From: Achromobacter deleyi
GTDB lineage: Bacteria > Pseudomonadota > Gammaproteobacteria > Burkholderiales > Burkholderiaceae_B
Direction: 5' to 3'
Assembly: GCF_902859705.1 (NCBI RefSeq)
Contig: NZ_CADIJO010000006.1
Coordinates: 186,001-250,000, forward strand
DNA length: 64,000 nt
Shown here in pieces: positions 5,338-53,653 of the stretch (within the stretch, counting starts at the first letter, position 1; each line of letters opens with the position of its first letter). The position numbers and the translations under genes are program-made. A model generated the notes under the pieces. The model was not told the origin of the DNA. It ran no database searches and saw only the letters and a list, made by a program, of their open reading frames with translations.

Positions 5338-5513
5338 CGTAGGTCGCCCCTGGCGGGGGTGGCATGCGGAGTGGGCGCCCACGATTGCGGTCCGGAGCCT
5401 TCGCTCCGGACTTCCCCTTCGTCATCTTCGTCCGGGCCTACGGCCCCTCCTTCAGATTCCCTCGGGCGCATCGAGGTTGCCCACTCCGCATGCCACCCCC
5501 GCCAGGGGCTACG
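5338..5513 (+). repeat. Alpha hairpin element, copy 1
   Basis: A perfect 30-bp inverted repeat (5347-5376 pairs with 5479-5508) is bounded by CGTAG and CTACG. The left side has four extra bases, GTCG, next to CGTAG. Inside are the inner stem CCGGAGC-CTTC-GCTCCGG, a pyrimidine-rich TTCGTCATCTTCGT segment and the apical stem GGGCC-TAC-GGCCC, then GATTCCCTCGGGCGCATC. No T-run follows, so it is not a typical intrinsic terminator. Confidence 0.9.
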
Positions 5514-6177
5514 TGCGTCTTGGGTCGTTGCGCTGCTAGACCTGTGGTCAGGGATGACGTTGCTGCTGCCCGCCGATGACGGCCGCGCGGGCGGCCGCCA
5601 GCGGCTTACGCGGTGTCTTGGTTTGCTTGATGACGCTTGCGCGCGTTTTGTCAGTTGCTTGCTTGGGGGCCTCCCCCACTTTGGGGTGGGCGGTGATGGG
5701 CGGCGCGGTGGCGGGTGGTTTGCGTTTGACGGGCGGTGGCGCGCCGCCCATCTTTGTGGGGGCTGGGGTTCTTGCCGAATAGGGTTCTTTTGGAACTGGG
5801 CATTTGCCACATCGGTTTTTGACAGACCAGGTCGCTTTTGCCGCATCGGTTCATGTCGCAGCGACGATTCTTGCCACTGGCGCTCTTTCAACGGGCCGAC
5901 GTTCGTACCTACCAATGCTCGTTTGAAGGGCCGTCGGTTCATCGCGCACCCCTCCACCGACCGCGCTTGTTTTTCTCTTCCCCCCACCCCGAGTCGCACT
6001 CCCCCTTTCCTACAACTCTCCTCCCCCCTTCAACCGACCACTCCCCATAAGCCAAAGAAGGCCGCCCGCGCGGCCGCTTTTGGCGTCCCCGCAAGATCTT
6101 CCATTGCCGAGGAAGCGTTTCCCAAGAACGCCAAGCACACTGCCCGCCCCAGCGGCGGTCAAGATGCTGCAGTGGAG

Positions 6178-6354
6178 CCCGCGGCGTTGGCGGTCTCCCG
6201 TGCGCGGGGCGTCGATGCGCCCGAGGGAATCTGAAGGCAGTCGCCGAAGGCGACAACGAAGATGACGAGGGGGGGGGCCGCCTAGGCAAGTCCGGAGCGA
6301 AGGCTCCGGACCGCAATCGTTGCCCCGCGCACGGGAGACCGCCAACGCCGCGGG
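6178..6354 (-). repeat. Beta hairpin element, copy 1
   Basis: A perfect 33-bp inverted repeat: 6178-6210 pairs with 6322-6354. It keeps the same inner core as the alpha element but in the opposite direction, with GTCGCC-TTCG-GGCGAC as the apical stem when read on the minus strand. The arm sequence is unlike the other beta copies except for the GTTGGCGG and CGGGGC blocks. Confidence 0.9.
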
Positions 6355-6441
6355 CGGCCGTCGAAGATCTGACCGCCCACTAAAACGCACAGCCTCCCGT
6401 TAAACTCCCCCAAAAAACCACAACAACATTGGAGAACAAAC

Positions 6442-7113
6442 ATGCGCATTTTGCTCGTCGAGGACAACCTTGACCTGGGCGATGCCGTGGAGAGCAAACT
6501 GCGCTCGGCCGGCCATAGCGTGCAGTGGGTGCGTAATGGGGTGGAGGCGTTGCGGTGGGGGTTGGACGAGACTTGGGATGCCTTGGTGCTCGACATCAAC
6601 CTGCCTGGCAAAGATGGGTTTACCGTTATTCGGGAATTGCGGGCCGCCGGGCTCGAAGCGCCCGTGCTCGTCGTCACTGCGCGGTCCGAGATTGAAGACA
6701 AGATCGACATGCTGGACCTGGGCGCTGATGATTATCTCGTCAAGCCCTTTGACCTGCGCGAGCTTGAGGCGCGGTTGCGGGCCTTGCTGCGGCGGCCCGC
6801 GGGGCAGACCACCAGCGTCACCACCTATGGCAACCTGAGCCTGGACATGGCCAATCGGCATGTCGTGTTGGCCGGGACGCCGCTGGAACTGGGGCGGCGT
6901 GAATTTCGGTTGCTGGAGATTCTGCTCGGCAAATTGGGGCAGACCGTGGCCAAGGAGCGGTTGATGAACCAGTTGTTCGACCTGGATGATGGGTCGCTCA
7001 ATGCGCTGGAATTGCTGATTTCGCGGCTACGCAAGAAATTGGCGGGCGCGTCCATCGATATCGTCACCGTACGGGGCGTGGGGTATCAGGCCCGCAGCCA
7101 TGAGCCTTCCTGA
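6442..7113 (+). CDS. OmpR/PhoB-family response regulator
   Basis: A 223-residue two-component regulator. The receiver domain starts MRILLVEDN, with phosphoacceptor Asp51 in LDINLPGKDG and the conserved Lys101 in VKPFD. The winged-helix DNA-binding domain covers about 125-220 and ends VTVRGVGYQA. It overlaps the downstream kinase gene by 14 bp, so the two are translationally linked. It presumably controls the adjacent transporter operon, by analogy with TctD- or PgtA-type systems. Codons are unusually rich in G/T third positions, unlike the transporter genes further along. Confidence 0.93.
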   Translation: MRILLVEDNLDLGDAVESKLRSAGHSVQWVRNGVEALRWGLDETWDALVLDINLPGKDGFTVIRELRAAGLEAPVLVVTARSEIEDKIDMLDLGADDYLVKPFDLRELEARLRALLRRPAGQTTSVTTYGNLSLDMANRHVVLAGTPLELGRREFRLLEILLGKLGQTVAKERLMNQLFDLDDGSLNALELLISRLRKKLAGASIDIVTVRGVGYQARSHEPS

Positions 7114-9595
7114 CAGCTTCTCGATTCGGCGGCGCGTCTTCACGTTGGGCGCCGTCTTGCTGGCCTGCGCCTTGTTGGGGCTGGTCTTCTTTTTGCGCGG
7201 CTATGCGCAGCGGGCCGCCGAGCAGGCGTTTGACCGGTTGCTGGCGGCGTCGGCGTTGACGATTGCGGGGTCGGTGCAGATCGAGGACAACGGCGTCACC
7301 GTTGAGCCGCCGGTGTCGTCGCTGGCCATGCTGTCGGGCAGCGAGCGGGTGTTCTACGAAGCCCGCACGTCCAACGGCCGGCTCATCACCGGGTATGCAG
7401 ACCTGGCGCCGGGGCTGCCGCTGGCGCAGTCGGCCACGCCTGTCTTCACGTATCTGAGCTATCACGATGAACCCGTGCGCGTAGCGACGGTGGGGCGGCT
7501 GGTGTCGGCCAGCCAGCATGCGGGTTGGGTGACCGTGCGGGTGGCGGAAACGCTTGGGTCGCGCGAAGAACTGGCCGACGAGATATTGGGGCGCAGCGTG
7601 TTGCCGTTGATCGTGGTGTCACTGGTGGCGCTGGGCCTCTTGTGGTTTGGGGTGCAGCGGGCCTTTGCGCCGCTGGCCGTGGTGGAACGCGAGCTGCGGC
7701 GGCGGGCGCCGGATGACCTGGCGCCGCTGGTCACGCCCGTGCCCACCGAAGTGCGGCGGCTGGTCGAGGCGCTCAATGCGTTCATGCAGCGGCTGTCCGG
7801 GCTGATGGATACGCTGAACACGCTGGTCGCCGACGCGGCGCACCAGGTGCGCACACCGCTGGCTTCGCTGCGGGCGCAGGCCGAGGTGGCGCTGGACGAA
7901 ACCGATCCCAAGCGCCTGCACGAGCGACTGGGGCGCATCCACTTGAACGCCATGCATGCCAGCCAGCTCATCAATCAGTTGCTGATGGACGCCACCATCA
8001 CGCACCGGCTGGGCAAGGGGTCGCGGGCGCCGGTGGGCGTGGCCGAGACCATCAATGAAACGCGGCGCCGCATCGGACCGCTGGAGGCCCAGCGGCTGCG
8101 CATCGAGATCGCGCCGCAGGTGCGGCGGGCGCGCATCGCGGGCGATCGCGTGGCCTTGCGTGAAATGCTGCGCAACCTGGTGGACAACGCGCTGCGCTAT
8201 GCGCCGGACGGCACCGTGGACATCCAGGCCACGCCCGTGGCGGGATTCCGGGTGGCGCTGACCGTGTCCGACCGCGGGCCGGGCATTGCCGATGACGAAA
8301 AGGATGCCGTGCAGCAGCGCTTCATACGCGGACGAACCGGCGAATCGCAGCCCGGTTCCGGGCTGGGCCTGGCCATCGTGCGGTCGGTGGCGGTGGCGCA
8401 TGGCGGGTCGCTGTGGCTGCAGGACCGCCCCGGCGGCGGCCTGTCGGCGCGGGTGATCCTGCCGCTCGCGCGCCAGCGCAGCGGGGCCGGCGGGCGCACG
8501 CTGGCCGGCTGGCTGGGCGCCGCGTTCGCGGCGGCCCTGTTGCTGGTGGCTGCCCCGGCCGACGTGCGTGCCGCCGACATTCCCGAGATCGTCACCCGCT
8601 ATCCGGCGCCGCAGCCGTCGTCGCGCGTGCTGACCATCGCCGGGCCGACCGACACGCCGGTGGTGGCGCCGCTGATCCTGGGCTTTCAGGCGCAGCGGCC
8701 CGACGTCACGGTGGTGTACCGGGAGATGGGCAGCCGCGAACTGTACGAGGCGGCCATCGAGAACCAGCTGAAGGACGTGGACGTGCTGATGAGCTCGGCC
8801 TCGGACCTGCAGATCCGGCTGGCCAACGACGGCTACGCGCAGCGCTATACCTCGCCCTATGCGGCCAAGCTGCCGTCGTGGGCGGTGTGGCGCAACGAGG
8901 TCTACGGCTTCACCTTCGAGCCAGCGGTGATCGTCTACAACCCCAAGCGCTACACCGAAGCCACCGTGCCGCGCTCGCGCCAGGACCTGCTGCGCACGCT
9001 GGAACACGACCGCGTGCGGCTGCATGGCCGGGTGGGCACCTACGACATTTCGCGCAGCAGCGTGGGCTACCTGATGGCCGAGCAGGACGAGCTGGTGTCG
9101 TCGAATTTCTGGGGGCTGGCCAACGCCTTCGGCCAGGTCGGCGTACGGCTGTCGGCCACCAGCGCGGAACTGCTGGACGCGATCGAGAACGACGAGATGG
9201 ACCTGGGCTACAACATCCTGGGGTCCTATGCGCTGTCGCGCCAGGCGGCAGGCAGCAAGATCGGCATCGTGTTTCCGCAGGACTACGTGCTGGTGCTGGC
9301 GCGTTCGGTGCTGATCGCCCGCAAGGCCCCCAATCCGGACCTGGGCCGCGCGCTGGTCGACTGGCTGCTGTCGCCGGCTGGACAGCAGGTGGCATCCAGC
9401 CACGCGGCGCTGGGCTCGATCATGGAAGACACGCCGGGGCGCTGGACCTCGGAAGCCGTGCTGGCGCGTTCGCAGGGCATCGTGCAGCCGGTGGTGCTGT
9501 CGCCCGCGCTGCTGGTGGGGCTGGACCAGCGGCGCCATTCGCGCTTCGTGCAGAACTGGATTCGGCTGGTCACCGATACGCCGGAACGTCCCTGA
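7100..9595 (+). CDS. Sensor histidine kinase fused to a C-terminal periplasmic solute-binding domain
   Basis: An 831-residue hybrid. Residues 1-35 and about 166-186 are membrane segments flanking a periplasmic loop of the TctE N-terminal type. The dimerisation domain has phosphoacceptor His248 (AAHQVRTPLASL) and the ATPase domain has NLVDNALRYAP, DRGPGIADDE and GSGLGLAIV. After the kinase come a third hydrophobic stretch at about 467-490 ending in an AxA-like site (VRAAD), and then an approximately 340-residue family 1 solute-binding domain. That domain is a paralogue of the next gene: LPSWAVWRN, TFEPAVIVYN, GYNILGSYA and FPQDYVLVLAR all have counterparts there. The layout would put the binding domain in the periplasm. 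Ligand unknown; PgtB/PgtC-like sensing is an inference. Confidence 0.9.
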   Translation: MSLPDSFSIRRRVFTLGAVLLACALLGLVFFLRGYAQRAAEQAFDRLLAASALTIAGSVQIEDNGVTVEPPVSSLAMLSGSERVFYEARTSNGRLITGYADLAPGLPLAQSATPVFTYLSYHDEPVRVATVGRLVSASQHAGWVTVRVAETLGSREELADEILGRSVLPLIVVSLVALGLLWFGVQRAFAPLAVVERELRRRAPDDLAPLVTPVPTEVRRLVEALNAFMQRLSGLMDTLNTLVADAAHQVRTPLASLRAQAEVALDETDPKRLHERLGRIHLNAMHASQLINQLLMDATITHRLGKGSRAPVGVAETINETRRRIGPLEAQRLRIEIAPQVRRARIAGDRVALREMLRNLVDNALRYAPDGTVDIQATPVAGFRVALTVSDRGPGIADDEKDAVQQRFIRGRTGESQPGSGLGLAIVRSVAVAHGGSLWLQDRPGGGLSARVILPLARQRSGAGGRTLAGWLGAAFAAALLLVAAPADVRAADIPEIVTRYPAPQPSSRVLTIAGPTDTPVVAPLILGFQAQRPDVTVVYREMGSRELYEAAIENQLKDVDVLMSSASDLQIRLANDGYAQRYTSPYAAKLPSWAVWRNEVYGFTFEPAVIVYNPKRYTEATVPRSRQDLLRTLEHDRVRLHGRVGTYDISRSSVGYLMAEQDELVSSNFWGLANAFGQVGVRLSATSAELLDAIENDEMDLGYNILGSYALSRQAAGSKIGIVFPQDYVLVLARSVLIARKAPNPDLGRALVDWLLSPAGQQVASSHAALGSIMEDTPGRWTSEAVLARSQGIVQPVVLSPALLVGLDQRRHSRFVQNWIRLVTDTPERP

Positions 9596-9767
9596 GAAAA
9601 CCGGCGTGGCCTGAAGCCTGGCTGCGCCGGTGGCCTTGTCCCCGATACCGGGATTACCCCTATCCCACCCCGCCCCCCATGACAGGACGACGACAGACGC
9701 CGGCCCCTAAGATGCGGGCGAACAGGCTTGACGCCTGTCGATACTAATTCCAACGGAGACAAGACCC

Positions 9768-10865
9768 ATGCTTGCCAAGTCCAGACTGGCGGCCGCCTGC
9801 GCCGCCGCATTCGCCATCGCCGCCGGCAGCGCCTACGCCCAATCCGTACCCGCGGGCTACCCGGCCGATTACCAGAAGATTCTCGACGGCGCCAAGAAGG
9901 AAGGCAAGGTCGTGATCTATTCGACCACCGACACCAAGGCCGCCGGCCCCATCATCAAGGGCTTCGAAGCGCTGTACCCGGGCGTCAAGGTCGAATACAA
10001 CGACATGAACAGCACCGAGCTGTACAACCGCTACATCAGCGAACAGGCAGCCGGTGGCAGCAGCGGCGACATCGTCTGGAGCTCGTCGATGGACTCGGCC
10101 CTGAAGCTGGCCACCGACTACGCGCTGCAGTACAAGTCGCCCGAGATCGCCAAGCTGCCGGCCTGGGCCGTATGGAAGGACTCGGCCTACGGCACGACCT
10201 ACGAGCCGGCCGTGTTCATCTACAACAAGCGCCTGATTCCGGCCAACGAAGTGCCGACCACGCACGGCGCCCTGGCCAAGCTGATCGCCAGCCAGCCGGA
10301 CAAATTCAAGAACAAGGTCACCACCTACGACATCGAGAAGTCGGCCGTGGGCTTCATGCTGGCCGTGCAGGACAAGGCCAACGACCCCAAGTACTTCGAC
10401 ACGCTCAAGGACATCGCCAAGGGCGGCCTGATCGTGCAGTCGTCCACCGGCACCATGATGGAACGCGTGTCGTCGGGTGAAAACCTGATCGGCTACAACA
10501 TCCTGGGCTCGTACGCCGAAACCCGCGCCAAGACCGATCCGTCGCTGGGCGTGGCGTACCCGACCGACTACGCGCTGGTGCTCTCGCGCGTGGCGTTCAT
10601 CAGCAAGAAGGCCAAGAACCGCAATGCGGCCAAGCTGTGGATGGACTACCTGCTGTCGCAGAAGGGCCAGGAAATCATGGCCAACCAGGCTGACCTGGCC
10701 TCGGTGCGCGACGACATCGAAGGCGACAACGATGTGGACGGCATGACCAAGAAGCTGGGCGCCTCGCTCAAGCCGATTCCGGTCAACGAGACGCTGCTGG
10801 ACTACCTGGAGCAGAACAAGCGCCTGCAGTTCATCAAGGACTGGCGCGCTGCCGCAGGCAAGTAA
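9768..10865 (+). CDS. ABC transporter periplasmic binding protein, FbpA/AfuA type
   Basis: A 365-residue solute-binding protein with a clear signal peptide (cleavage after SAYA, about residue 24). The mature part starts QSVPAGYPADYQKIL and carries VVIYSTTDTKAAGP, TTYEPAVFIYN, GYNILGSYA and YPTDYALVLSR. It feeds the permease and ATPase that follow. Members of this group bind ferric iron or phosphorylated organic acids; I cannot choose. The gene is preceded by AACGGAGAC at the ribosome site and followed by a strong hairpin that may favour high expression of this first gene. Confidence 0.92.
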   Translation: MLAKSRLAAACAAAFAIAAGSAYAQSVPAGYPADYQKILDGAKKEGKVVIYSTTDTKAAGPIIKGFEALYPGVKVEYNDMNSTELYNRYISEQAAGGSSGDIVWSSSMDSALKLATDYALQYKSPEIAKLPAWAVWKDSAYGTTYEPAVFIYNKRLIPANEVPTTHGALAKLIASQPDKFKNKVTTYDIEKSAVGFMLAVQDKANDPKYFDTLKDIAKGGLIVQSSTGTMMERVSSGENLIGYNILGSYAETRAKTDPSLGVAYPTDYALVLSRVAFISKKAKNRNAAKLWMDYLLSQKGQEIMANQADLASVRDDIEGDNDVDGMTKKLGASLKPIPVNETLLDYLEQNKRLQFIKDWRAAAGK

Positions 10866-10934
10866 GGCTGACGGCGCCACGGGGGCAACGCATCCGCCCC
10901 CGGCCGCCAGCACGCGGGAGGGCGGCATGCCCCC

Positions 10935-10979
10935 CACCCGCCGGCCGGACATTCACCTGCGGGTGAATGCCGGCGGGTG
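10935..10979 (+). promoter_or_regulatory. Intercistronic stem-loop between binding protein and permease
   Basis: CACCCGCCGG (10935-10944) pairs with CCGGCGGGTG (10970-10979), and inside it ATTCACC (10951-10957) pairs with GGTGAAT (10962-10968). There is no T-run. Such hairpins after the binding-protein gene of ABC operons commonly stabilise the upstream mRNA or cause partial termination; that role is inferred here. Confidence 0.6.
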
Positions 10980-11027
10980 ATCGCCAGCGGGCGCCCCCCG
11001 CGTCTATCGAATCAACAGGATTTCCCC

Positions 11028-12806
11028 ATGCAGTCATTGCGCAGAAAATGGCAGTCCCTGCCGCGCGGCGTGGTGGTGCTGATCACAGCCTTGGCCATCT
11101 ACGTGCCGCTGTCGTTCATCATCATCCAGAGCTTCCTGTCCGCGCCCTTCTTTTCGCCGTCCAAGGTCTTCAGCCTGGACGCGTTCCGCTTCATCTTCGC
11201 GGACCCTGATTTCTACAAGGCGCTGAAAAGCGGCTTCATCCTGGCCTTCGGGCTGGCCGTCATCGCCATCCCTCTGGGCGGCATGCTGGCTTTCCTGATG
11301 ATCCGCACCGACCTGCCCGGCCGGCGCTGGATCGAGCCCCTGATCCTGGTGCCGGTGTTCGTGTCGCCGATGGTGCTGGGCTTTGGCTACGTGGTGGCGG
11401 CCGGCCCGGTCGGCTTCTTCTCGATCTGGGCGCAGAACATCCTGGGCTTCGTGCCCTGGAACGTGTATTCGCTGACCAGCATCGTCATCATCGCCGGCCT
11501 CACGCACGTGCCGCACGCCTACCTGTACATCTCGTCGGCCCTGCGCAGCATGGGTTCGGACGTGGAAGAAGCGGCCCGCGTCACCGGCGCCTCGCCGCTG
11601 CGCGTGATGGTGTCGGTGAGCCTGCCGATGGTGCGCCCGGCCATGCTGTACGCCACCGTGCTGCTGTTCTTCCTGGGCCTGGAAGTGTTCGGCCTGGTGC
11701 TGGTGCTGGGCGATCCGGAAGGCAACCTGGTGTTGGCCACCTATCTGTACAAGCTGACCAACAAGCTCGGCATTCCGTCGTACCACCTGATGGCCGCCGT
11801 GGCCGTGGTGCTGATCTGCATGACGATTCCGCTGGTGATGCTGCAGCGCCGCCTGATGCGTACCGCCAACCGTTTCGTCACCGTCAAGGGCAAGGCCTCG
11901 CGCGCCCGTCCGCTGCCGCTGGGCAAGTGGCGCTGGGTGGCGGGCGGCGTGGTGGCGTTCTGGCTGCTGGTCACCATCGTGGTGCCGCTGATGGGCGTGC
12001 TGCTGCGCGCGTTCGTGTCCAACTGGGGCATGGGCGTGTCGCTGTTCGACGTGCTGTCGCTGGACGCCTTCCGCACCGTGTTCGCGCAACCGAACCTGAT
12101 GCGCGCCATCGTCAACTCGGTTGCCATCGGCGTGTTCGGCGGTGCGCTGGCCGTGATGTGCTACATGTTCGTGGGCCTGGCGATGCACCGCAAGCCGGAC
12201 AACGTCACCCGCTTCATGGACTACAGCGTGCTGGTGCCGCGCGCGGTGCCCGGCCTGCTGGCAGGCCTGGCGTTCCTGTGGGTGTTCCTGTTCGTGCCGA
12301 TGTGGCTGGACAACGCGCTGGATCCGGACCTGGGCGGCTGGCTGTCGGGCCTGCCGTTCGCCGAATGGCTGCGCGAGAACTTCATCGAATGGCTGCGTGC
12401 CATGCGCAGCACCATCTTCAGCGTGTGGCTGGCCTACACGGTGGTCTGGATGGCCTACGGCCTGCGCCTGATCTCGTCGACGCTGCTGCAGGTGGGGCCT
12501 GAACTGGAAGAGGCCGCCCGCAGCGCCGGCGCGCGCCGCGGCCAGGTCACCCGCCACGTCACCGTGCCGCTGGCCAAGTACGGCCTGATCGGTTCGTGGT
12601 TGCTGATGTTCCTGATCTTCGAGCGCGAATACTCCACCGGCGTCTACCTGCTGTCGCCCGGCACCGAGACCATCGGGTCCATGCTGGTGTCGCTGTGGGC
12701 GTCCGGCGCCATCGACATCGTGGCCGCGCTTTCCTTCATCAATATCGTTCTGGTCGTGATCGGCCTGGGCATCGCCCTGCGATTCGGAGTCAAACTTCAT
12801 GATTGA
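11028..12806 (+). CDS. FbpB-type ABC transporter permease (two fused permease halves)
   Basis: A 592-residue inner-membrane permease with about 12 hydrophobic segments. Each half carries an EAA-type coupling loop: SDVEEAARVTGASPLRV in the first and PELEEAARSAGARRGQV in the second. This duplicated single-chain arrangement is typical of ferric iron-type importers. The start MQSLRRKW is set by the ACAGGA ribosome site; the open frame begins 17 codons earlier. It overlaps the ATPase gene by 8 bp. It transports the ligand delivered by the upstream binding protein. Confidence 0.92.
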   Translation: MQSLRRKWQSLPRGVVVLITALAIYVPLSFIIIQSFLSAPFFSPSKVFSLDAFRFIFADPDFYKALKSGFILAFGLAVIAIPLGGMLAFLMIRTDLPGRRWIEPLILVPVFVSPMVLGFGYVVAAGPVGFFSIWAQNILGFVPWNVYSLTSIVIIAGLTHVPHAYLYISSALRSMGSDVEEAARVTGASPLRVMVSVSLPMVRPAMLYATVLLFFLGLEVFGLVLVLGDPEGNLVLATYLYKLTNKLGIPSYHLMAAVAVVLICMTIPLVMLQRRLMRTANRFVTVKGKASRARPLPLGKWRWVAGGVVAFWLLVTIVVPLMGVLLRAFVSNWGMGVSLFDVLSLDAFRTVFAQPNLMRAIVNSVAIGVFGGALAVMCYMFVGLAMHRKPDNVTRFMDYSVLVPRAVPGLLAGLAFLWVFLFVPMWLDNALDPDLGGWLSGLPFAEWLRENFIEWLRAMRSTIFSVWLAYTVVWMAYGLRLISSTLLQVGPELEEAARSAGARRGQVTRHVTVPLAKYGLIGSWLLMFLIFEREYSTGVYLLSPGTETIGSMLVSLWASGAIDIVAALSFINIVLVVIGLGIALRFGVKLHD

Positions 12807-13887: not shown

Positions 13888-13943
13888 GCCCCGCGGGCAG
13901 CCACAGGTGACGGCGGCGGGCGGACTGGCTCTACAATGCGTGC

Positions 13944-15703: not shown

Positions 15704-15707
15704 CCCG

Positions 15708-16442: not shown

Positions 16443-16535
16443 CACCAGAAACCGACTGATTTCCAAGGCTTGCGCCCACCTTGAACGGCGGGATTTGTTA
16501 AGCTTTCACGTTTACGCGCTCACTCGTCCCTTTTC

Positions 16536-18616: not shown

Positions 18617-18788
18617 CGTAGGTCGCTCGGCGCGGGGGGCACTTGTGGAGTGGGCGCCCACGATTGCGGTCCGGAGCCTTCGCTCCGGCCTTCCCCTTCG
18701 TCATCTTCGTCCGCCTTCGGCTCCCTTCAGATTCCCTCGGGCGCATCGAGGTTGCCCACTCCACAAGTGCCCCCCGCGCCAAGCTACG
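18617..18788 (+). repeat. Alpha hairpin element, copy 2
   Basis: Perfect 27-bp arms, 18629-18655 with 18754-18780, are bounded by CGTAG/CTACG with the extra GTCG on the left. The arm middle reads GCACTTGTGGAGTGGGC here against GGCATGCGGAGTGGGC in copy 1, and the right arm changes in step. The apical stem is short, with a CTTCGG core. Confidence 0.9.
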
Positions 18789-19263
18789 TCCTTTGAGATT
18801 TGTCGCGCTGCTAGACCTGTGGTCTGGGCATGAGATCTACAGGGTCGCCAAGCCGCGGCCGCGCGGGCGGCCACGTTTGGCATTCGTGTTGCTGACAGTG
18901 TTGCGGGTGCGCTTCGCGCTGTTGTAGATGGGTTTTCTATTGGGTCGCACATCGTGGGGGTGGGGCGGTGATGGGCGGCGCGGCAGAGTCCTGCTTGCGC
19001 ATGTTGACCATCTCGCGCGCCGCCCATCGGGCGCTGCACATTCCTGTCGAACGCCACGGCATCCGCGCCGCTAGAAAAAACTGCATCTTCACCTACACGC
19101 GAGAGCGGCATCGGCGCACGCAAGACGCCGCGTAAGCTTCGTAAGGCCGCCCGCGCGGCCGGCACGAAGCGGGCAACGCCCTACCCCGCCCACCCCCACT
19201 GACCGTGAGAAAAACGCCAAGCACACCGCCCGCCCCAGCGCCCGTGACTAATCTTCATCATGA

Positions 19264-19438
19264 GCGCTTGGCGGTGTCGGTGTGGGGTGGGCGGGGCGTT
19301 AGATGCGCCCGAGGGAATCGGAAGGGAGCCGAAGGCGGACGACGATGACGAAGGGGGGGGCCGCCTAGGCAAGTCCGGAGCGAAGGCTCCGGACCGCAAT
19401 CGTAGCCCCGCCCACCCCACACCGACACCGCCAAGCGC
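19264..19438 (-). repeat. Beta hairpin element, copy 2
   Basis: A perfect 34-bp inverted repeat, 19264-19297 with 19405-19438. The outer block GCGCTTGGCGGTGTCGG and the inner block GCGGGGC are shared with the other beta copies; the TGTGGGGTGG between them is private to this copy, and its complement is present in the opposite arm. The inner core is on the minus strand. Confidence 0.92.
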
Positions 19439-25861: not shown

Positions 25862-26027
25862 GCGCTTGGCGGGGTCGGCGGGTGGAGGGCGGGGCTACGA
25901 TTGCGGTCCGGAGCCTTCGCTCCGGACTTCCCCGTCCTCATCCTCGTCCAGGCCTTCGGCCTTCCCTACGGATTCCGTCGGGCGCATCTACACGCCCCGC
26001 CCTCCACCCGCCGACACCGCCAAGCGC
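25862..26027 (+). repeat. Beta hairpin element, copy 3
   Basis: 34-bp arms, 25862-25895 with 25994-26027, match at 33 of 34 positions. The private middle of the arm is GGCGGGTGGAGGG, mirrored in the right arm. The inner stem is CCGGAGC-CTTC-GCTCCGG and the apical stem AGGCC-TTCG-GCCTT, both on the plus strand. Confidence 0.9.
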
Positions 26028-26499
26028 TCACGATTAGGATCAATCTCGGGCGCTGGGACGAGTGGTGTGTTTGGCGTTTTTCTCACGGTCAGTGGGGGGG
26101 GCGGGGTGGGACGGTGCCCGCTTCGTGCCGGCCGCGCGGGCGGCCTTACGAAGCTTACGCGGCGTCTTGCGTGCACCGATGCCGCTCTCGCGTGTAGGTA
26201 GCGGTGCTGTTTTCTAGCGGCGCGGATGCCGTGGCGTTTCACGTCAGTGTGCAGCGCCTGATGGGCGGCGCGCGAGATGGTTTACATGCGCAAGCAAGAG
26301 TCTGCCGCGCCGCCCATCACCGCCCCACCCCCACGATGTGCGACCCATTAGAAAACCCATCTACAACAGCGCGAAGCGCCACAGCAACACTGTCAACAAC
26401 ACGAACGCCAAACGTGGCCGCCCGCGCGGCCGCGGCTTGGCGACCCTGTAGATCTCATGCCCTGACCACAGGTCTAACAGCGCAACGACCCGAGACACG

Positions 26500-26671
26500 C
26501 GTAGTCCCTCGCGGCGGTGGCATGCGGGGCGGGCAACCTCGATGCGCCCGAGGGAATCTGAAGGGAGCCGAAGGCGGACGAAGATGACGACGGGGAAGTC
26601 CGGAGCGAACGCTCCGGACCGCAATCGTGGGCGCCCGCCCCGCATGCCACCGCCGCGAGGGACGACCTACG
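26500..26671 (-). repeat. Alpha hairpin element, copy 3
   Basis: A perfect 30-bp inverted repeat, 26505-26534 with 26633-26662. The arms TCCCTCGCGGCGGTGGCATG... are the same as alpha copy 5 and different from copies 1, 2 and 4. The inner stem has GAAC/GTTC instead of the usual CTTC loop. The extra four bases lie on the right side, as expected for the reversed direction. Confidence 0.9.
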
Positions 26672-32646: not shown

Positions 32647-32651
32647 CCGCC

Positions 32652-41453: not shown

Positions 41454-41484
41454 GCGTAAAGCTCCTTTGCGGTCGTTGCCGCGC

Positions 41485-43912: not shown

Positions 43913-43938
43913 GCGGCTCGTTGGCGTTTATTGTTCTT

Positions 43939-44115
43939 CGTAGGTCGCCCGGCGCGGGGGTGGCTTGCGGAGTGGGCGCCCACGATTGCGGTCCGGAGCC
44001 TTCGCTCCGGACTCCCCCTTCGTCATCTTCGTTGTCGCCTTCGGCGACTGCCTTCAGATTCCCTCGGGCGCATCGAGGTTGCCCACTCCGCAAGCCACCC
44101 CCGCACCGGGCTACG
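43939..44115 (+). repeat. Alpha hairpin element, copy 4
   Basis: 30-bp arms, 43948-43977 with 44081-44110, match at 29 of 30 positions. The arm sequence contains GGCTTGCGGAGTGGGC where copy 1 has GGCATGCGGAGTGGGC, with the matching change in the other arm. The apical stem is GTCGCC-TTCG-GGCGAC, a CUUCGG tetraloop, on the plus strand. Confidence 0.9.
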
Positions 44116-44587
44116 GTTTTCGAGGTTTGTCGCGCTGCTGGACCCGTGTTCAGGGAATGGAATCTACAGGGCCGCCAAGCCGCGGCCGCGCGGGCGGCCA
44201 CGTTTGGCATTGCGTTGCTGGAAAGTGTTGCGAGTGCGCTTCGCGCTGATGAAGACTGGTTTTCTAATGGTTCGCAGTCAAGAGGGAGGGGCGGTGATGG
44301 GCGGCGCGGCAGACTCTTGCTTGCGCATGCTGACCGTCTCGCGCGCCGCCCATCAGGCGCTGCACACTGACGTGAAACGCCACGGCATCCGCGCCGCTAG
44401 AAAACAACATCCTCACCTACACGCGAGAGCGTCATCGACGCACGCAAGACGCCGCGTAAGCCTCGTAAGGCCGCCCGCGCGGCCGGCACGAGGCGGGCAA
44501 CGCCCTACCCCGCCCACCCCCACCGACCGTGAGAAAAACGCCAAGCACACCGCCCGCCCCAGCGCCCGAGATTGATCCTAATCATGA

Positions 44588-44748
44588 GCGCTTGGCGGTG
44601 TCGGTGGGCATAGGGCGGGGCGTTAGATGCGCCCGAGGGAATCGGAAGGGAGCCGAAGGCGGACGACGATGACGAAGGGGCAGTCCGGAGCGAAGGCTCC
44701 GGACCGCAATCGTAGCCCCGCCCTATGCCCGCCGACACCGCCAAGCGC
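44588..44748 (-). repeat. Beta hairpin element, copy 4
   Basis: 34-bp arms, 44588-44621 with 44715-44748, match at 33 of 34 positions. The arm middle GGGCATAGGG is shared with copy 5 and differs from copies 1-3. It lies just downstream of the minus-strand ridA gene. Confidence 0.92.
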
Positions 44749-44780
44749 GGCTAAAGAACTCAACCCGCAGCAATCAAAAC

Positions 44781-45185: not shown

Positions 45186-45225
45186 AACGTCTCATCCTAT
45201 TATCAAAAAAACAAATAGCGCGGAG

Positions 45226-45651: not shown

Positions 45652-45681
45652 GGGATTTCCTTGTGATTCCTTAATACGGGC

Positions 45682-47322
45682 TCACGCCATCTTGCGCAGC
45701 GCAAAGCGTTGCAGCTTGCCCGTTTCCGTGCGCGGCAATGCCGACACGAACTCGATGGCGCGGGGATACTTGTAGGGTGCGATGCTGGCCTTGACGAACT
45801 GCTGCAGCGCCGCCACCAGCGCGTCGCCCGGTTCGAAACCCGGCTTGAGCACCACGAACGCCTTCACCAGCTGGCCGCGCTCCTCGTCCGCCGCGCCCAC
45901 CACCCCGCACTCGGCCACCGCCTCGTGGCGCAGCAGCGCGTCCTCGACCTCGGGGCCCGCGATGTTGTAGCCGGCCGACACAATCATGTCGTCGTTGCGG
46001 GCCTGGTAGAAAAGGTAGCCTTCGTCGTCCTGCAGGAACGTATCGCCCGGCAGGTTCCAGCCCTTCTGCACGAAACGGCGCTGGCGCTCGTCGGCCAGGT
46101 AGCGGCAGCCGGTGGGGCCCTTGATCGCCAGGCGGCCCACCGTGCCGTTGGGCACCGGGTTCATGTCGTCGTCCACGATCTGCGCGATGTAGCCGGGCAC
46201 CACGCGGCCGATGGCGCCGCGGCGCACCGACTCGGGCGGGCTGGACACGAACACGTGGATCATTTCCGTGCCGCCGATGCCGTCGATCATCTCGATGCCG
46301 CTCGCTTCCTTCCAGAGTTGGCGGGTGGCGTCGGGCAGGGCTTCGCCGGCCGACACGCTTTTCTTCAGCGACGACAGGTCGAACTTGCCGACCAGCGCCG
46401 ACATCTGGCGGTAGAACGTGGGCGCGGTGAACACGATGGTGGCGCGGAAGTCCTGGATCAGCTGCAACAGGCTTTCCGGCGTCAGGCGTTCGGCCAGCAC
46501 GGTGCTGGCGCCCACGCGCAGCGGAAAGCACAGCAGCCCGCCCAGCCCGAACGTGAACGCCAGCGGCGGCGTGCCGCAGAAGATGTCGTCCGGGCCCGGC
46601 TTGATGACGTGCTTGGGGAACAGGTCGCACATCGCCAGCACGTCGCGGTGAAAGTGCATGCATCCCTTGGGCGCGCCCGTCGTGCCGCTGGTGAAGGCGA
46701 TCAGGCAGACGTCGTCGGCGGCCGTGTCGCAGGCCGTGAAGTCGTCGGGTTTGGCCGCGGCCAGCGCGTCCAGCGCATCGGGCGCGGTGTCATTGAAGTA
46801 CATGATCTGCGCCAGTTCGGCGCAGTGATGTTCGTGGCCGGGCTGGGCGCAGAACTCGGCTTCTTCTTTCAGGCGCGCATCGCACAGCACCGCCTGGATC
46901 TGCGCCTTTTCGATGATCTGCTTGAGTTCCTTGGCACGCAGCAGCGGCATGGTCGGCACGGTGACCAGGCCCGCCTTGATGGCGGCCAGCCAGGCAGCGG
47001 CCATCATGGGGTTGTTGGGGCCGCGCAGCAGCAGACGGTTGCCGGGCACCAACTTCATGTCTTCGGCCAGCACGCGGGCAATGCGGTTGGTCAGCGCCGC
47101 CAATTCGCGATAGGTCATGGTGGCCTGCTTGCCGTCCTGCGGCCAGCGCAGCGCGATGCGCTCGCCATGGCCGCGCTCGACCATGGCGTCCACCAGTTCC
47201 ACCGCGCAATTGAAGCGCTTGGGATAGGCCACGTCGGGGCCGTCCAGCAGGAATTCTGGCCATTGTTCGCCCGGGGGCAGGTTGTCCCGGGCAAAGGTGT
47301 CGATGTGGGCGGATACTTCCAT
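45682..47322 (-). CDS. Benzoate/2-aminobenzoate-CoA ligase family protein
   Basis: A 546-residue acyl-adenylate ligase. The AMP motif is FTSGTTGAPKGCMHFHRD, with GIGGTEMIHVFVS and the C-terminal SAGYNIAGPEVEDALL and ALPRTETGKLQR hinge/Lys block. It is placed with 2-aminobenzoate (anthranilate)-CoA ligase by its neighbours: the same operon carries a fused monooxygenase/reductase of the 2-aminobenzoyl-CoA type. Other benzoate-like acids are possible. Confidence 0.88.
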   Translation of the reverse strand: MEVSAHIDTFARDNLPPGEQWPEFLLDGPDVAYPKRFNCAVELVDAMVERGHGERIALRWPQDGKQATMTYRELAALTNRIARVLAEDMKLVPGNRLLLRGPNNPMMAAAWLAAIKAGLVTVPTMPLLRAKELKQIIEKAQIQAVLCDARLKEEAEFCAQPGHEHHCAELAQIMYFNDTAPDALDALAAAKPDDFTACDTAADDVCLIAFTSGTTGAPKGCMHFHRDVLAMCDLFPKHVIKPGPDDIFCGTPPLAFTFGLGGLLCFPLRVGASTVLAERLTPESLLQLIQDFRATIVFTAPTFYRQMSALVGKFDLSSLKKSVSAGEALPDATRQLWKEASGIEMIDGIGGTEMIHVFVSSPPESVRRGAIGRVVPGYIAQIVDDDMNPVPNGTVGRLAIKGPTGCRYLADERQRRFVQKGWNLPGDTFLQDDEGYLFYQARNDDMIVSAGYNIAGPEVEDALLRHEAVAECGVVGAADEERGQLVKAFVVLKPGFEPGDALVAALQQFVKASIAPYKYPRAIEFVSALPRTETGKLQRFALRKMA

Positions 47323-47385
47323 GAAATTCCCCTTGCTGCTGCGGTGTGGTTGACTATGCGGAAGGCGGAAGGCTCGATGGCCTCT

Positions 47386-48558
47386 TTACGCCTTCAGCAG
47401 TTCGCGGGCGATGATCAACTTCTGCACTTCGGTGGCGCCTTCGTAGATACGCAGCGCTCTGATTTCCCTGTAAAGCTTCTCCACCGGCATCCCCGACACC
47501 ACGCCCGCGCCGCCGAACATCTGCAACGCGCGGTCGATCACGGTCTGCGCCGATTCGGTGGCCGTCATCTTGGCCATGGCCGCTTCGCGCGTGGTGCGTA
47601 CTTTCTGCACGTCGCGCATCCACGCGGCGCGGTACGTCAACAGCGCCGAGGCATCGATGGCGGTGGCCATGTCGCCCAGCGCGGCCTGCGTCAGTTGCAG
47701 GTCGGCCAGCGTCTGGCCGAACATGCGGCGCGACTTCGAACGCGCCAGGCCTTCGTCCAGCGCGCGGCGGGCAAAGCCCAGCGCGGCGGCGGCCACCGAG
47801 GCGCGGAAGATGTCCAGCGTCATCATGGCCAGCTTGAAGCCCTGCCCCGCATCGCCCAGCCGGTGCGACACCGGCACGCGGCAGTTGTCGAACGTGATGG
47901 TGGCCAGCGGGTGCGGCGCGATCAGCTCGATGCGCTCCGAGACCTCGAAGCCCGGAGTATCGGCATCCACCACGAAGGCGCTGATGCCGCGCGCGCCCGG
48001 GGCCTCGCCGGTGCGGGCGAAGACGCAATAGAAGTCGGCGATGCCGCCGTTGGAAATCCAGGTCTTGGCGCCGTTCAGCACATAGGCGTCGCCATCCAGG
48101 CGGGCCTCGCAGGCCAGCGCGGCCACGTCGGAACCGGCATCGGGTTCGGATAGCGCAAAGGCGGCGATGGCCTCGCCGCGGGCCACGCGCGGCAGGTAGC
48201 GCTGGCGCAATTCGTCAGAGCCCATCAGCGAAATCGCGCCGCTGCCCAGGCCTTGCATGGCGAAAGCGAAGTCGGCCAGGCCTTCGTGGCGTGCCAGGGT
48301 TTCGCGCAGGATGCAGACCGCGCGCGAATCGACTTCCGGCAAAGCGCCGCCCCAGGCGCCGCCCGGGCCGCCCGCCACCGCGTAGCGCAGCCAGCCGGCC
48401 TGGCCCATGGCCTTGACCAGCTTCTTGCAGGCCGCGTCGGCATCGTGGTGGTCCACGTCGCCCAGCGCGCCCTCGCACCAGGCGTCGACCTCGTGCGCCA
48501 ACTGGCGATGGGTCTCGTCGAAAAAGGGCCAGACCAGCCAGCTTGCGTCGCGCATCAT
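47386..48558 (-). CDS. Acyl-CoA dehydrogenase
   Basis: A 390-residue FAD acyl-CoA dehydrogenase. [48 protein letters not shown] and the catalytic Glu in [11 protein letters not shown] are in family order. It would oxidise a cyclic or aliphatic acyl-CoA in the pathway. The ATG is joined to the enoyl-CoA hydratase stop by a TGATG overlap at 48558, so translation is coupled. An ATG three bases later is equally usable. Confidence 0.9.
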
Positions 48559-49415
48559 CAATTCCCTTCGAAAACGGGCTTTTGCTTGGCCACGAAGGCC
48601 TCGTAGGCGCGATGGAAGTCGCGCGTCTGCATGCAGATGGCCTGGGCCTCGGCTTCGGCCTCGATGGCCTCGTCCACGCCCATGTTCCATTCCTGGTGCA
48701 GCAGCTTCTTGGTCACGCCGTGGGCAAAGGTGGGGCCGGCGGCCAGTTGCGCGGCCAGCTTGGCGGCGGCTTCCATCAGTTCGCCGGACTCATGCAGCGC
48801 GTTGAAGAAGCCCCAGCTGGCGCCCTCTTCAGCCGTCATGGCGCGGCCGGTGTACAGCAATTCAGAGGCGCGGCCCTGGCCGATCATGCGCGGCAGCAGC
48901 GTGCAGGCGCCCATGTCGGCGCCCGCCAGGCCCACCCGCGTGAACAGGAACGCGGTGCGCGAGGCCGGCGTGCCCAGGCGCATGTCGGACGCCAGCGCCA
49001 CCATCGCGCCAGCGCCGGCGCAGATGCCGTCCACCGCTGCCACGATGGGCTGCGGGCAGGCGCGCATGGCCTTGACCAGGTCGCCCGTCATGCGGGTGAA
49101 GTCCAGCAGTTCAGGCATGCTCATCTTGGTGAGCGGCCCGATGATCTCGTGCACGTCGCCGCCCGAGCAGAAGTTGCCGCCAGCGCCCGTCACCACCACC
49201 ACCTTGATGTCGGTCGCGTACACCAGGGCGCGGAACAGGTCGCGCAGCTCGGCGTAGGAATCGAAGGTCAGCGGGTTCTTGCGCTCGGGGCGGTTGAGCG
49301 TGATGGTGCCGATCTTGCCGTCGGCCGACACCTGCCACAGGAACGTCCGGGCCTGGTAACCGGCCAGCGGGCGCTTGTGGTGTTTCATGGTGTGCTCTTC
49401 GGGCTGGGTGCTCAT
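48558..49415 (-). CDS. Enoyl-CoA hydratase/isomerase family protein
   Basis: A 285-residue crotonase-fold protein. [34 protein letters not shown] and [20 protein letters not shown] are the CoA-binding and oxyanion blocks. The ATG at 49415 has a perfect GGAGA ribosome site six bases away, so I prefer it to an ATG five codons upstream. Substrate is probably an alicyclic or aliphatic enoyl-CoA of this operon. Confidence 0.9.
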
Positions 49416-49453
49416 GGTGTCTCCGTTCATGAATGCTGGGGATGGGGGCCGGC

Positions 49454-50245
49454 TCAGCCGGTCATCACTTCACCGCCGTCCACGGCGATGGCCTGGCCGT
49501 TGATCGATGCCGATGCCGGCAAGGCCAGCCAGGCGACCGTCTCGGCCACTTCTTCGGGCTGCACCAGGCGGCCCTGCGGGTTGCGTTCGGCCAGCTTGGC
49601 GCGCGCGGCTTCCGGCGTCATGCCGGTCTTGTCGACGATATTGGCCACCGCGCCGCGCACGATGTCGGTTTCGGTATAGCCGGGGCAGACGGCGTTGACG
49701 GTGACGCCCTTCTGCGCGGTTTCCAGCGCCAGCGAGCGGGTCAGGCCGATGACGCCGTGCTTGGCCGCGCAATAGGCGCTGACGTAGGCATAGCCGATCA
49801 GGCCCGCGGTGCTGGCCACGTTGATGACGCGGCCCCACCTGGCGGCCAGCATGCCGGGCAAGGCGGCCTGGATGCAATGGAAAGTGCCGGTCAGGTTGAC
49901 TGCCAGCATCGACTGCCACAGGGCGGCGTCGGTGCGGTCAAAGCGCTGGCTGACGGCCTGGCCGGCGTTGTTGACCAGCACCAGCACGGGGCCGAGTTCG
50001 GCCTCGGCCTGGGCGAAGGCCTGGCGGACCGAGGCCTCGTCGGCGATGTCGGCGCTGACCGCCTGCACCTGGCCCAGGCTGGCCAGGCTGTCGACGGCGG
50101 CTTCCAGCGCACCGCCGTCGCGGCCCAGCAGCGTGACGCGGGCACCGCGCGCCAGCAGCGCGCGGGCACTGGCCAGGCCAATGCCGCGGGCGCCACCCGT
50201 CACCAGGGCGTGGCGGCCTGCCAGGGGGAGTGCGGACGTACTCAT
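49454..50245 (-). CDS. SDR, probable 3-hydroxyacyl-CoA dehydrogenase
   Basis: A 263-residue SDR with [19 protein letters not shown] at the cofactor site, [20 protein letters not shown] and Tyr/Lys in YCAAKHG. The ATG overlaps the monooxygenase stop codon (ATGA). Among hydratase and dehydrogenase genes a 3-hydroxyacyl-CoA dehydrogenase role is likely, though 3-oxoacyl reductases look the same. The frame runs 55 codons further upstream but those residues have no family match. Confidence 0.88.
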
Positions 50246-52593
50246 TTGATGTCCAGTTGCGCCATGGCGGCGGCGCGCTCGAAGTTGGTTTCCAGCTGGC
50301 GCTTGCCGGCGAAGTACTGGCTGGGCCAGGCCACGTCGCGGTAGCCCACGCGCGCCGATTCGCGCAGCGTCCACGAAGCGTCGGCCAGGTGCGGCCGCGC
50401 CAGGGCGCACAGGTCGGCGCGACCCGAGGCGATGATGGCGTTGGCGTGGTCGGCCTCGAAGATGGCGCCCACCGCGATGGTGGGAATGCCGGCTTCGTTG
50501 CGCACGCGGTCGGCGAACGGGGTCTGGAACATGCGGCCGTAGACGGGCTTTTCTTCCTTGCTGACCTGGCCCGACGAGCAGTCGATCATGTCGGCGCCGG
50601 CGGCCTTGAAGTGGCGGGCGATCTCGACGGCGTCGTCGGCGGTGATGCCGCCCTCGACCCAGTCGCTGGCCGAGATACGCACCGACATGGGCTTGTCTTC
50701 GGGCCAGACGGCGCGCACGGCGTGGAACACTTCCAGCGGGAAGCGCAGGCGGTTTTCCAGGCTGCCGCCGTATTCGTCGTCGCGCAGGTTGGTCAGCGGC
50801 GAGATGAAGCTGGACAACAGGTAGCCGTGGGCGCAGTGCAGTTCCAGCCAGTCGAAACCGGCGGCCTGCGCACGGCGGGCGGCGGCCACGAAGTTATCGC
50901 GCACCTGATCCATATCGGCGCGCGTCATGGCGCGCGGCGTGTCCGACACGCCTTCGATATAAGGCAAGGCCGACGCCGACAGCAGCGGCCAGTTGCCTTC
51001 GGCCAGCGGGTGGTCGATCTTCTGCCAGCCCAGCTGGGTGGAACCCTTGCGGCCAGCATGGCCGATCTGCACGCCAATGCGCGCATCGCTGTTGCCATGC
51101 ACGAAGCCGACGATGCGGGCAAAGGCCTGCTGCTGCGCGTCGTTCCACAGCCCCGGGCACCCCGGGGTGATGCGGGCGTCAGGCGACACGCAGGTCATTT
51201 CGACCATGACCAGCCCGGCGCCACCCATGGCGCGCGCGCCCAGGTGCACCAGGTGGAAGTCGCCCGGCACGCCGTCGGTGCACGAGTACATGGCCATGGG
51301 CGACACCAGGATGCGGTTCTTGAGCCGCACGCCGCGCGCCTGGTAGGGCGTCAGCATGGGCAGCGGGGGCCGCTGGCCGGCCGGTGCCGGGGTGCCGGCA
51401 TGTTCGGCGATCCAGCGCTCGAAGCCTTCGAGCCAGGCCGGATCGCGCAGGCGCAGGTTTTCGTGCGAGATGCGCTGCGAACGGGTGAGCAGCGAGTAGG
51501 CGAATTGTTCGGGTTCGAGTTCTGCATAACGCTCGACGTTTTCGAACCACTCGGTGGAGTTGCGAGCGGCGTTCTGGATTTTCAGCACTTCCACGCTGCG
51601 CACGTCTTCGTAGTGCTTGAGGCCGCGCTCGACACTGCCTTCGGCGCCGCTCAGGCAGCGCGCCAGTTCGATGGCGTCTTCCAGCGCGAGCTTGGTGCCG
51701 GAGCCGATGGAGAAGTGGGCGGTATGGGCGGCATCGCCCATCAGCACGACGGGGACGGCGCGCTTGCCGCGGGCGGTTTCAAGCTGGTTCCAATGCACCC
51801 AGGTGTTGCAGATGACGCGCGGAAAGCGAATCCAGATGGCCGAGCCGCGCAGGTGCGAGGCGTTGCTGATGAGCGCATTGCCATCCAGCCAGGGCGCGAA
51901 CAGCTTTTCGCAGTAGGCGATGCCCTCTTCCTGGCTCATCTGTTCGATGCCGGCGGCCTGCCAGGTTTCTTCGGGCGTTTCGACGATAAAGGTCGACATG
52001 CCGTCTTCATACCGATAGGCATGGGCCTGGAACCAGCCATGCTCGGTCTGGACAAAGGCAAAGGTGAAGGCGTCGAAGACTTTCTTGGTGCCCAGCCAGA
52101 CGAAGCGGCAGCGGCGCTGGTCGATGTCGGGATGGAAGGTGTCGGTGTAGCGGGTGCGAATCTGGCTGTTGATGCCGTCGGACGCGATGACGAGATCGGC
52201 ATCGTATTCACGGGCAATGGCCTGGTCGTCCTGGACGAAGTTCTCGAAGACCAGCTTGACGCCGACGTCTTCGCAGCGCGCCTGCAAAATATTCAACAGC
52301 TTCTTGCGGCCAATGCCGATGAAGCCGTGGCCGCCGCTGCGAATGCTGCGGCCCTTGAAGTGGATGTCAATATCATCCCAATGATTGAAGGCATCGCCAA
52401 TGGTCTGCGCGGAAACCGGGTCCGCTTCGCGCAGGTTCTGCATGGTGGCATCGGAAAACACGACGCCCCAACCAAAGGTGTCATACGGCCGGTTGCGCTC
52501 GATGACGGTAACTTCGTTGGCGGGGTCTTGCAACTTCATGAGCAGACCAAAATACAAGCCGGCGGGACCCCCACCAATGCAGACTATTTTCAT
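50242..52593 (-). CDS. 2-aminobenzoyl-CoA/salicylyl-CoA monooxygenase-reductase fusion
   Basis: A 783-residue two-domain flavoprotein. Residues 1-385 form an FAD monooxygenase ([17 protein letters not shown] at the start, [22 protein letters not shown]). Residues from about 390 form an old-yellow-enzyme FMN domain ([32 protein letters not shown]). This fusion is known for bacterial 2-aminobenzoyl-CoA monooxygenase/reductase and salicylyl-CoA 5-hydroxylase. With CoA ligase, dehydrogenase, hydratase, SDR and RidA genes behind it, the pathway is a CoA-dependent 2-aminobenzoate-like route. It is first in the operon. Confidence 0.9.
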
Positions 52594-52783
52594 TGCCGTA
52601 ATGCTCCATGAAGGGCGATCTGCGAATGACGGGATCGCGGCTTTTTAGGTCTTGATAGTTTAGGCTTGAAATATATACCTGGATGGGGAGGATCGCAAAT
52701 GGGGGAAACGTTTAGTTGAAATGGGGACGGGGTGTTTGGGTTTTTTGCGGGGGTTGGTTTGGGGGCTGGCGGAGGGTGGTCTT

Positions 52784-52959
52784 CGTGGGTCGTCCCTCGC
52801 GGCGGTGGCATGCGGGGCGGGCGCCCACGATTGCGGTCCGGAGCGTTCGCTCCGGACTTCCCCTTCGTCATCTTCGTCCGGGCCTACGGCCCCTCCTTCA
52901 GATTCCCTCGGGCGCATCGAGGTTGCCCGCCCCGCATGCCACCGCCGCGAGGGACTACG
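52784..52959 (+). repeat. Alpha hairpin element, copy 5
   Basis: A perfect 30-bp inverted repeat, 52793-52822 with 52925-52954. The arms are identical to alpha copy 3, including the changed GTTC loop in the inner stem. The left flank is CGTGG rather than CGTAG. The apical stem is GGGCC-TAC-GGCCC as in copy 1. Confidence 0.9.
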
Positions 52960-53492
52960 CGCGTCTGGGTTCGTCGCGCTGTTAGACCTGTGGTCAGGGC
53001 ATGAGATCTACAGGGTCGCCAAGCCGCGGCCGCGCGGGCGGCCACGTTTGGCATTGCGTTGCTGGAATGTGTTGCGGGTGCGCTGCGCGCTGTTGGAGAT
53101 CGGCTTTCTAGTGGTCCGTCATGTTGGGGGTGGGGCGGTGATGGGCGGCGCGGCGGGGTCCTGCTTGCGCATGCTGACTGTCTCGCGCGCCGCCCATCGG
53201 GCGCTGCACATTCATGTCGAACGCCACGGCATCCGCGCCGCTACAGACCACCAGCGATTCTGATGCCATCTGCTTCGCTCACACGCAAGAGCGACATCTT
53301 GGCGCCACCAGCACCGCCACCCACACGCGAGAGCGGCATCGGCGCACGCAAGACGCCGCGTAAGCTTCGTAAGGCCGCCCGCGCGGCCGGCACGAAGCGG
53401 GCAACGCCCTACCCCGCCCACCCCACTCCGACCGTCGCTATCACGCCAAGCACACCGCCCTCCCCGACGACCGAGGCGAATCCTCATCGTGA

Positions 53493-53653
53493 GCGCTTGG
53501 CGGTGTCGGCGGGCATAGGGCGGGGCGTTAGATGCGCCCGAGGGAATCGGAAGGGAGCCGAAGGCGGACGACGATGACGACGGGGCAGTCCGGAGCGAAG
53601 GCTCCGGACCGCAATCGTAGCCCCGCCCTATGCCCGCCGACACCGCCAAGCGC
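53493..53653 (-). repeat. Beta hairpin element, copy 5
   Basis: A perfect 34-bp inverted repeat, 53493-53526 with 53620-53653. It is nearly identical to beta copy 4; the one arm mismatch present in copy 4 is paired here. It lies just past the minus-strand EAL gene. Confidence 0.92.

Follow-up and report, generated by a model that had tools for sequence, protein, structure and literature searches.

Paired long-hairpin repeats with variable but complementary stems in Achromobacter and related genera

Architecture of the composites in the window

The window, the whole analysed stretch of 64,000 nucleotides from Achromobacter deleyi (contig NZ_CADIJO010000006.1, positions 186,001 to 250,000; genome G000 below), contains ten long hairpins (H1) arranged as five inverted pairs (Table 1). 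The initial annotation had described five composite repeats with paired hairpin ends at these places, and the regions exist with their coordinates right within a few bases. The paired-hairpin description captured the family and its layout; it overlooked the single units, the unit of ~320 nt bearing a second hairpin, and the hypervariable, near-perfectly paired stems. Likewise unnoticed were the apex of a second hairpin (H2) in each half and the central hairpin (H3) present in every middle. A repeat finder bore out that one copy, at 25.9 kb, is inverted as a whole (arms of 277 nt and 237 nt being 93% and 92% complementary to other copies) and that the middle is alike in four copies and diverged in composite 1. 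The division of the ends into alpha and beta types applies to four composites; the right hairpin of composite 1 belongs to a third apex subtype and not to the beta type.

Table 1. Positions of the H1 hairpins, H2 apexes and H3 hairpins of the five composites in the window
Composite	Feature	Position	Strand	Remarks
1	left H1	5346..5509	+	alpha type, perfect 31-bp stem
1	left unit H2 apex	5581..5596	+	
1	H3	5696..5751		central hairpin
1	right unit H2 apex	6060-6075	-	
1	right H1	6177..6355	-	third apex subtype, perfect 34-bp stem, poly-C insert
2	left H1	18625..18784	+	alpha type
2	left unit H2 apex	18857..18872	+	
2	H3	18971..19027		central hairpin
2	right unit H2 apex	19145-19160	-	
2	right H1	19264..19438	-	beta type
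3	H1	25862..26027	+	beta type, inverted copy
3	left unit H2 apex	26130..26145	+	
3	H3	26261..26317		central hairpin
3	right unit H2 apex	26416-26431	-	
3	H1	26504..26663	-	alpha type, inverted copy
4	H1	43947..44111	+	alpha type
4	left unit H2 apex	44184..44199	+	
4	H3	44297..44353		central hairpin
4	right unit H2 apex	44469-44484	-	
4	H1	44588..44748	-	beta type
5	H1	52792..52955	+	alpha type
5	left unit H2 apex	53028..53043	+	
5	H3	53141..53197		central hairpin
5	right unit H2 apex	53373-53388	-	
5	H1	53493..53653	-	beta type

Each composite consists of two units of ~320 nt placed tail to tail with H3 at the centre. Within a unit, H1 is followed by a linker and by the smaller hairpin H2 with the apex GGCCGCGCGGGCGGCC. 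H1 is 158-179 nt long (~160 nt being typical) and carries an apex of ~90 nt on a stem of 31-34 bp; at the borders of the composites every stem measures either 31 or 34 bp and contains at most one mismatch. The apex is branched and includes invariant unpaired letters, the P2 hairpin (TCCGGAGC/GCTCCGGA), a short helix whose sequence varies with pairing retained, and a small P4 hairpin. Three subtypes are distinguished at the base of the apex, and the distance from the core to the stem base is 36-37 nt in 72 of 74 hairpins. The arms flanking H2 look complementary and variable, ungapped extension having failed in 34 of 69 cases because of an internal loop. The fold of the 886-nt segment 52780-53665 had z = -16 against 20 shuffles. 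The structure of lowest energy computed for one complete copy consists mostly of the alpha end folded back onto the beta end.

In some hairpins (10 of 74 in G000, 3 of 37 in the genome G026) P2 is separated from the helix that follows it by a C-rich insertion with a long C run; hairpins 6177-6355 and 19264-19438 are examples in the window. The 45-nt flanks of the five composites are 64-84% G+T on both sides when read toward the element, and the flanks of single copies appeared similarly G+T-rich by eye.

Distribution, empty sites and insertions

The large genome-wide family anticipated from the five copies was found. A 16-base core with at most one mismatch gave 76 matches in G000 (68 exact), whereas the reversed pattern gave 0, a difference beyond chance. 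From these cores 74 hairpins were extracted; 40 of them lack a second core within 1.3 kb, single units being about as common as paired ones. Comparison of one 836-bp composite with its own genome gave at least 137 matching pieces, with 40 of the 175 first-look candidates scored. The core is present in 42 of 43 Achromobacter genomes at 3 to 76 copies per genome. The lone exception, the smaller genome G003, has one match to the composite (E 1e-16) and none to H1 or to the covariance model R1, which was built from 77 sequences.

BLAST with the composite gave matches in 37 of 37 Achromobacter genomes and in 0 of 24 others of the order. With H1, over 250 genomes of the bacterial family and with three candidates scored in each, 28 Achromobacter genomes matched, and elsewhere two weak matches of 31-41 bp were obtained. 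The covariance-model search of related genomes, which the initial annotation had put forward, detected the repeat at E <= 0.001 in 61 of 268 genomes of the bacterial family (42 Achromobacter and 19 in 8 other genera), so the five window copies are not the only ones. The E-values of R1 are rough and favour GC-rich stems, and weak single matches are therefore doubtful; nine genomes of four other genera have 2 to 65 matches each. Many loci in other genera have, by eye, the same apex sequence. Stems were evaluated in 24 of 30 such loci, where the best inverted repeat is 29-44 bp and 850 of 927 pairs are Watson-Crick, the exceptions falling mostly at a conserved internal loop. Bordetella genomosp. 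4 (G160) has 65 R1 matches; 16 inverted pairs, each with a separation below 1 kb, account for 32 of these.

Two unusual arrangements were noted. At locus L146 (G026:C1:6484634 and 6484654), two opposite-strand cores lie 20 bases apart and the apex has seemingly been turned into one palindrome; G000 has a pair at this place, and the same core spacing occurs in G002, G023 and G034. At L110 (G000:C7:41000-50000), three tandem repeats of ~1.45 kb each contain an alpha hairpin and an ORF of 318-319 aa; the one ORF tested had no Pfam match.

In G026 each of the five window composites has its counterpart at the corresponding place, with neighbouring blocks 82-90% identical and the alpha side of locus 4 missing; the window copies are therefore old and not moving. 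In sister species some of these sites are empty. At locus 2 the aligned neighbour blocks are separated by 20 bp in G012 and 99 bp in G007, and at locus 3 by 56 bp in G012, 70 bp in G020 and 209 bp in G007; at locus 2 in G020, 1,650 bp of other sequence lies between them. In G003 the elements of both loci are absent and the neighbour genes are differently arranged. One composite of Bordetella genomosp. 4 is absent from all five same-genus relatives compared (G180, G225, G211, G111, G197), which have 60-129 bp in place of 986-1,037; three more distant genomes were uninformative for this site. A second, half copy in the same stretch (~520 bp) corresponds to 34, 42 and 149 bp in three relatives and to 304 and 492 bp in two, so its site is not empty in all five. 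The empty sites in the sister species and in the five Bordetella relatives indicate that the element has probably moved.

Bordetella genomosp. 4 also has mutually similar copies, which were read as young. When 11 loci were compared with L263, six aligned over 875-925 bp with 89.5-93.9% identity and four yielded shorter or more diverged stretches; L271 had no match longer than 300 bp. The flanks of the matching loci look unrelated. Seven loci inspected by eye have clean-looking ends with no recognised target-site duplication, and their diverged spacers hide the exact junctions.

No gene of the element's own was recognised; the initial annotation had seen no transposase either. One 836-bp composite had no match in a plasmid collection or a phage collection, and a plasmid or phage origin was rejected on this ground. 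An autonomous form, carrying a gene between its two ends, was also sought: pairs spaced ~2-2.3 kb in G029 and 2.5-3.6 kb in G105 hold IS110- and IS256-family genes, which look like insertions, and no parent IS with shared ends was recognised. Three different hairpins of G029 (L403:1115-2302, L405, L406) carry one and the same IS110-family element at exactly the same apex point, as if the repeat were a guide-specified target. An IS256-family element (PF00872) lies inside five of the six repeat loci read in G105 (L257-L261) and is near-identical between loci over up to ~1.38 kb. IS110, IS256 and other families are among those described as targeting REPs (PMC1525189).

Hypervariable stems with retained pairing

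The stem sequence of H1 differs widely from copy to copy at a near-fixed length. In the 74 hairpins of G000, 2361 of 2388 pairs (98.9%) are Watson-Crick, the remainder comprising 17 A-C, 2 G-T and 8 other combinations. In 35 of the 37 hairpins of G026, 1078 Watson-Crick pairs were counted together with 14 A-C, 1 G-T and 7 others. Alignment A1 shows both-side changes at 26 of 28 stem pairs. Counted over the structure (77 sequences, all 50 pairs), both sides had changed in 617 cells against 175 in shuffles, and there were just 8 single-side standard changes.

The same is seen between orthologous hairpins, which were paired through an upstream flank of more than 78% identity, pairs with a stem shorter than 28 bp being dropped. 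Between G000 and G018 (28 pairs, flanks on average 91.7% identical), 779 positions were unchanged, 107 had changed in both arms with pairing kept, 18 in one arm, and 0 in both arms without pairing. The corresponding counts were 432 unchanged, 39 in both arms with pairing and 9 in one arm for G023 (15 pairs), and 698, 171 and 22 for G026 (28 pairs), where 4 positions had changed in both arms without pairing. Gap positions were set aside (17, 9 and 46 for G018, G023 and G026). These paired changes at orthologous stems mean that pairing is maintained locus by locus. Stem length differs from G026 in 11 of 25 comparable stems, mostly as 34 against 33 bp and possibly in a way common to paralogs; in ten of them both arms differ by one base pair, and one is probably a stem cut at a mismatch. 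Two of 23 comparable stems differ from G018, both probably cut at a mismatch, and 0 of 14 from G023.

G-T intermediates are almost absent among the stem changes. RNA families usually have more G-U intermediates. The question of G-U intermediates in hairpin change is discussed in PMC8794818, where, as outlined there, hairpins maintained by template switching likewise undergo double compensating changes without such intermediates; that source infers the process in RNA genes, whereas here the repeats are dispersed and the stem is unusually long. Adjacent changes were slightly more frequent than at random in the three ortholog comparisons, not significantly (498, 327 and 237 of 2000 draws were as high), and a case for multi-base template switching built on such clustering was rejected. 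Changed arms were nearer to some G000 paralog than to the ortholog in 8 of 13, 4 of 7 and 8 of 15 cases in the three comparisons, which, many paralogs having been compared, only suggests exchange between copies.

Alternative readings and related repeats

Several readings of the family were weighed. The gene context was counted with a home-made gene caller, both hairpins of a composite being taken separately. Both neighbouring genes were called for 72 hairpins of G000; 42 of these are flanked by a convergent gene pair, 28 by a co-directional and 2 by a divergent one, and in G026 the numbers are 19, 15 and 1 of 35. Convergent orientation applies to 5 of the 54 pairs of adjacent genes in the window, and three of those five hold a composite, the other two composites lying between co-directional genes; composite 5 is placed between two minus-strand genes, the minus-strand ORF 50242-52593 being supported by Pfam. 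Such placement would be expected if the repeats served the host by organising the chromosome or as insulators or terminators between convergent genes, and the large chromosomal deserts of copies in three of five complete genomes point the same way (in G026, 1 of 33 loci falls in the emptiest 36% of the chromosome). However, the deserts are not significant in the other two genomes and may be explained by the distribution of conserved genes, some loci keep, by eye, their own terminator-like hairpin ahead of the element, and species with 3 cores exist. A host function of this kind is considered very unlikely. It is doubtful, although less improbable, that the element is a structured RNA read from the complementary strand (e.g., a 3'-end or antisense RNA on convergent genes) and selected for a perfect helix of 31-34 bp with a branched protein-binding apex. 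Among 165 distinct Achromobacter stems, the mismatches as written are 84 A-C against 10 G-T (53 and 10 distinct contexts); on the complement the A-C mismatches would read as G-T/U. The apical loop of P4 is mostly TNC as written, hence GNA on the complement, and the unpaired apex positions are invariant. These features hint that folding may take place on the complement, either as RNA or as single-stranded DNA, and the conserved position of the element between G000 and G026 speaks for an RNA. Even so, G-U would make up only about 1.6% of the pairs on the complement, and the A-C excess is missing in the 24 loci from other genera (20 G-T, 12 A-C); where it exists, its source could instead be a more efficient repair of G-T mismatches on the written strand. 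A scan of one composite revealed no sigma-70-type promoter-like site, and an essential RNA is at odds with 0 to 76 copies per genome. A known structured RNA was rejected, Rfam giving 0 matches at the gathering score over the whole window; at low stringency, one unit gave a single chance-level match (E 3.2), whose 15.9 bits fall far below the cut-off of 112.

The layout had been likened to REPINs with far longer units, and this comparison holds: inverted hairpin pairs are present and the unit is ~320 nt. As described in PMC3116915 and PMC3733652, REPs and REPINs share with the present family the pair of inverted hairpins with a conserved spacer between them (a layout matching that of PMC3116915), the occurrence of pairs and of singles as possible remnants, many extragenic copies, the lack of an own gene and the targeting by IS110-family elements. 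An ordinary REPIN or REP moved by a RAYT is nevertheless highly improbable. The conserved REP unit is given as 20-40 bp (PMC3733652), whereas H1 alone is ~160 nt (158-179 nt), has a variable stem and a branched apex, and is joined to a second hairpin. Furthermore, a PF01797 profile search of 16 Achromobacter genomes found no mobilising enzyme for the family: the Y1 transposase is present in two and missing in 14, including the high-copy carriers G026, G002, G017 and G029 (40, 42, 36 and 43 cores), and RAYT was rejected as the mobiliser. The sole Y1_Tnp matches in G000 are two on a 22-kb contig (G000:C48:5969-7774; L100, L102), separated by ~1.46 kb. The absence of a named element in the initial annotation stands as regards Rfam and the plasmid and phage collections; the Bordetella families Bor-1 and Bor-2 were compared by description only. 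These are intergenic stem-loop families of a carrier genus (PMC2267715, PMC1590033). Bor-2, with 167 bp, 17 matches, an intergenic location and a structured sequence (PMC2267715), is of the same size class and location type as H1 and may be related to it; that it is this very H1, already described, is unlikely. The accessible part of its description mentions no paired units, variable stems or Achromobacter (PMC2267715), and the earlier Bor repeats are given as 26-30 bp (PMC1590033). In the descriptions consulted, neither a paired architecture nor stem covariation appears for the two families.

YPAL is a structured intergenic hairpin repeat of the ERIC/RU type, and ERIC, RU and YPAL are single palindromes. 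ERIC and RU, as they are described, resemble the present family as hairpin-forming intergenic repeats of 100-170 bp without a transposase; here two units face each other and stems of near-fixed length have a free sequence. The likeness to MITEs lies in the non-autonomous nature, inverted ends and empty sites, whereas each end here is a long hairpin, and no parent IS or target duplication was recognised. No description of the family in Achromobacter was found in the literature searched, subscription papers being mostly outside the search. Its unusual part is the hypervariable, perfectly paired stem of near-fixed length.

The preferred reading, held at about even odds (probability roughly 0.5), is that of a non-autonomous REPIN-like element of unusual size, mobilised in trans, lying mostly between convergent genes and having its arms kept complementary by templated correction. 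The unit would comprise H1 and H2, and the replicating form would probably be an inverted pair of units. It may be copied in trans by an enzyme recognising the folded single strand, as the invariant apex and the near-constant distance from apex to base suggest, and inserted copies would persist where they are harmless. Complementarity of the arms would be restored inside the hairpin, either through template switching or by conversion of one arm to the other, and whole hairpins may to some extent be exchanged between copies; that the arms are corrected rather than selected is a conjecture. Weighing against the preferred reading are the missing mobiliser, the lack of recognised target duplications, the age of the window copies, the non-significant clustering of changes and the scarcity of stem-length differences from G018 and G023. 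A bolder possibility, to which little probability is given, is a new class of mobile element with T-shaped hairpin ends and self-primed, rolling-hairpin-like copying of a single strand, in which one arm is rewritten from the other at each event. If true, such copying would yield stems of near-fixed length, perfect pairing and free sequence under an invariant apex.

Apart from their own spread, the repeats double as landing sites for IS110-family elements. Under the preferred reading, the mobiliser, if found, would represent an enzyme type other than the RAYTs, one that reads a large folded end. Long perfect stems with changing sequence could be maintained either by selection through G-U intermediates or by templated correction. 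The family provides dozens of replicates in many genomes, many of them orthologous, in which double changes number in the hundreds and intermediates are few, and this makes the choice between the two directly testable.
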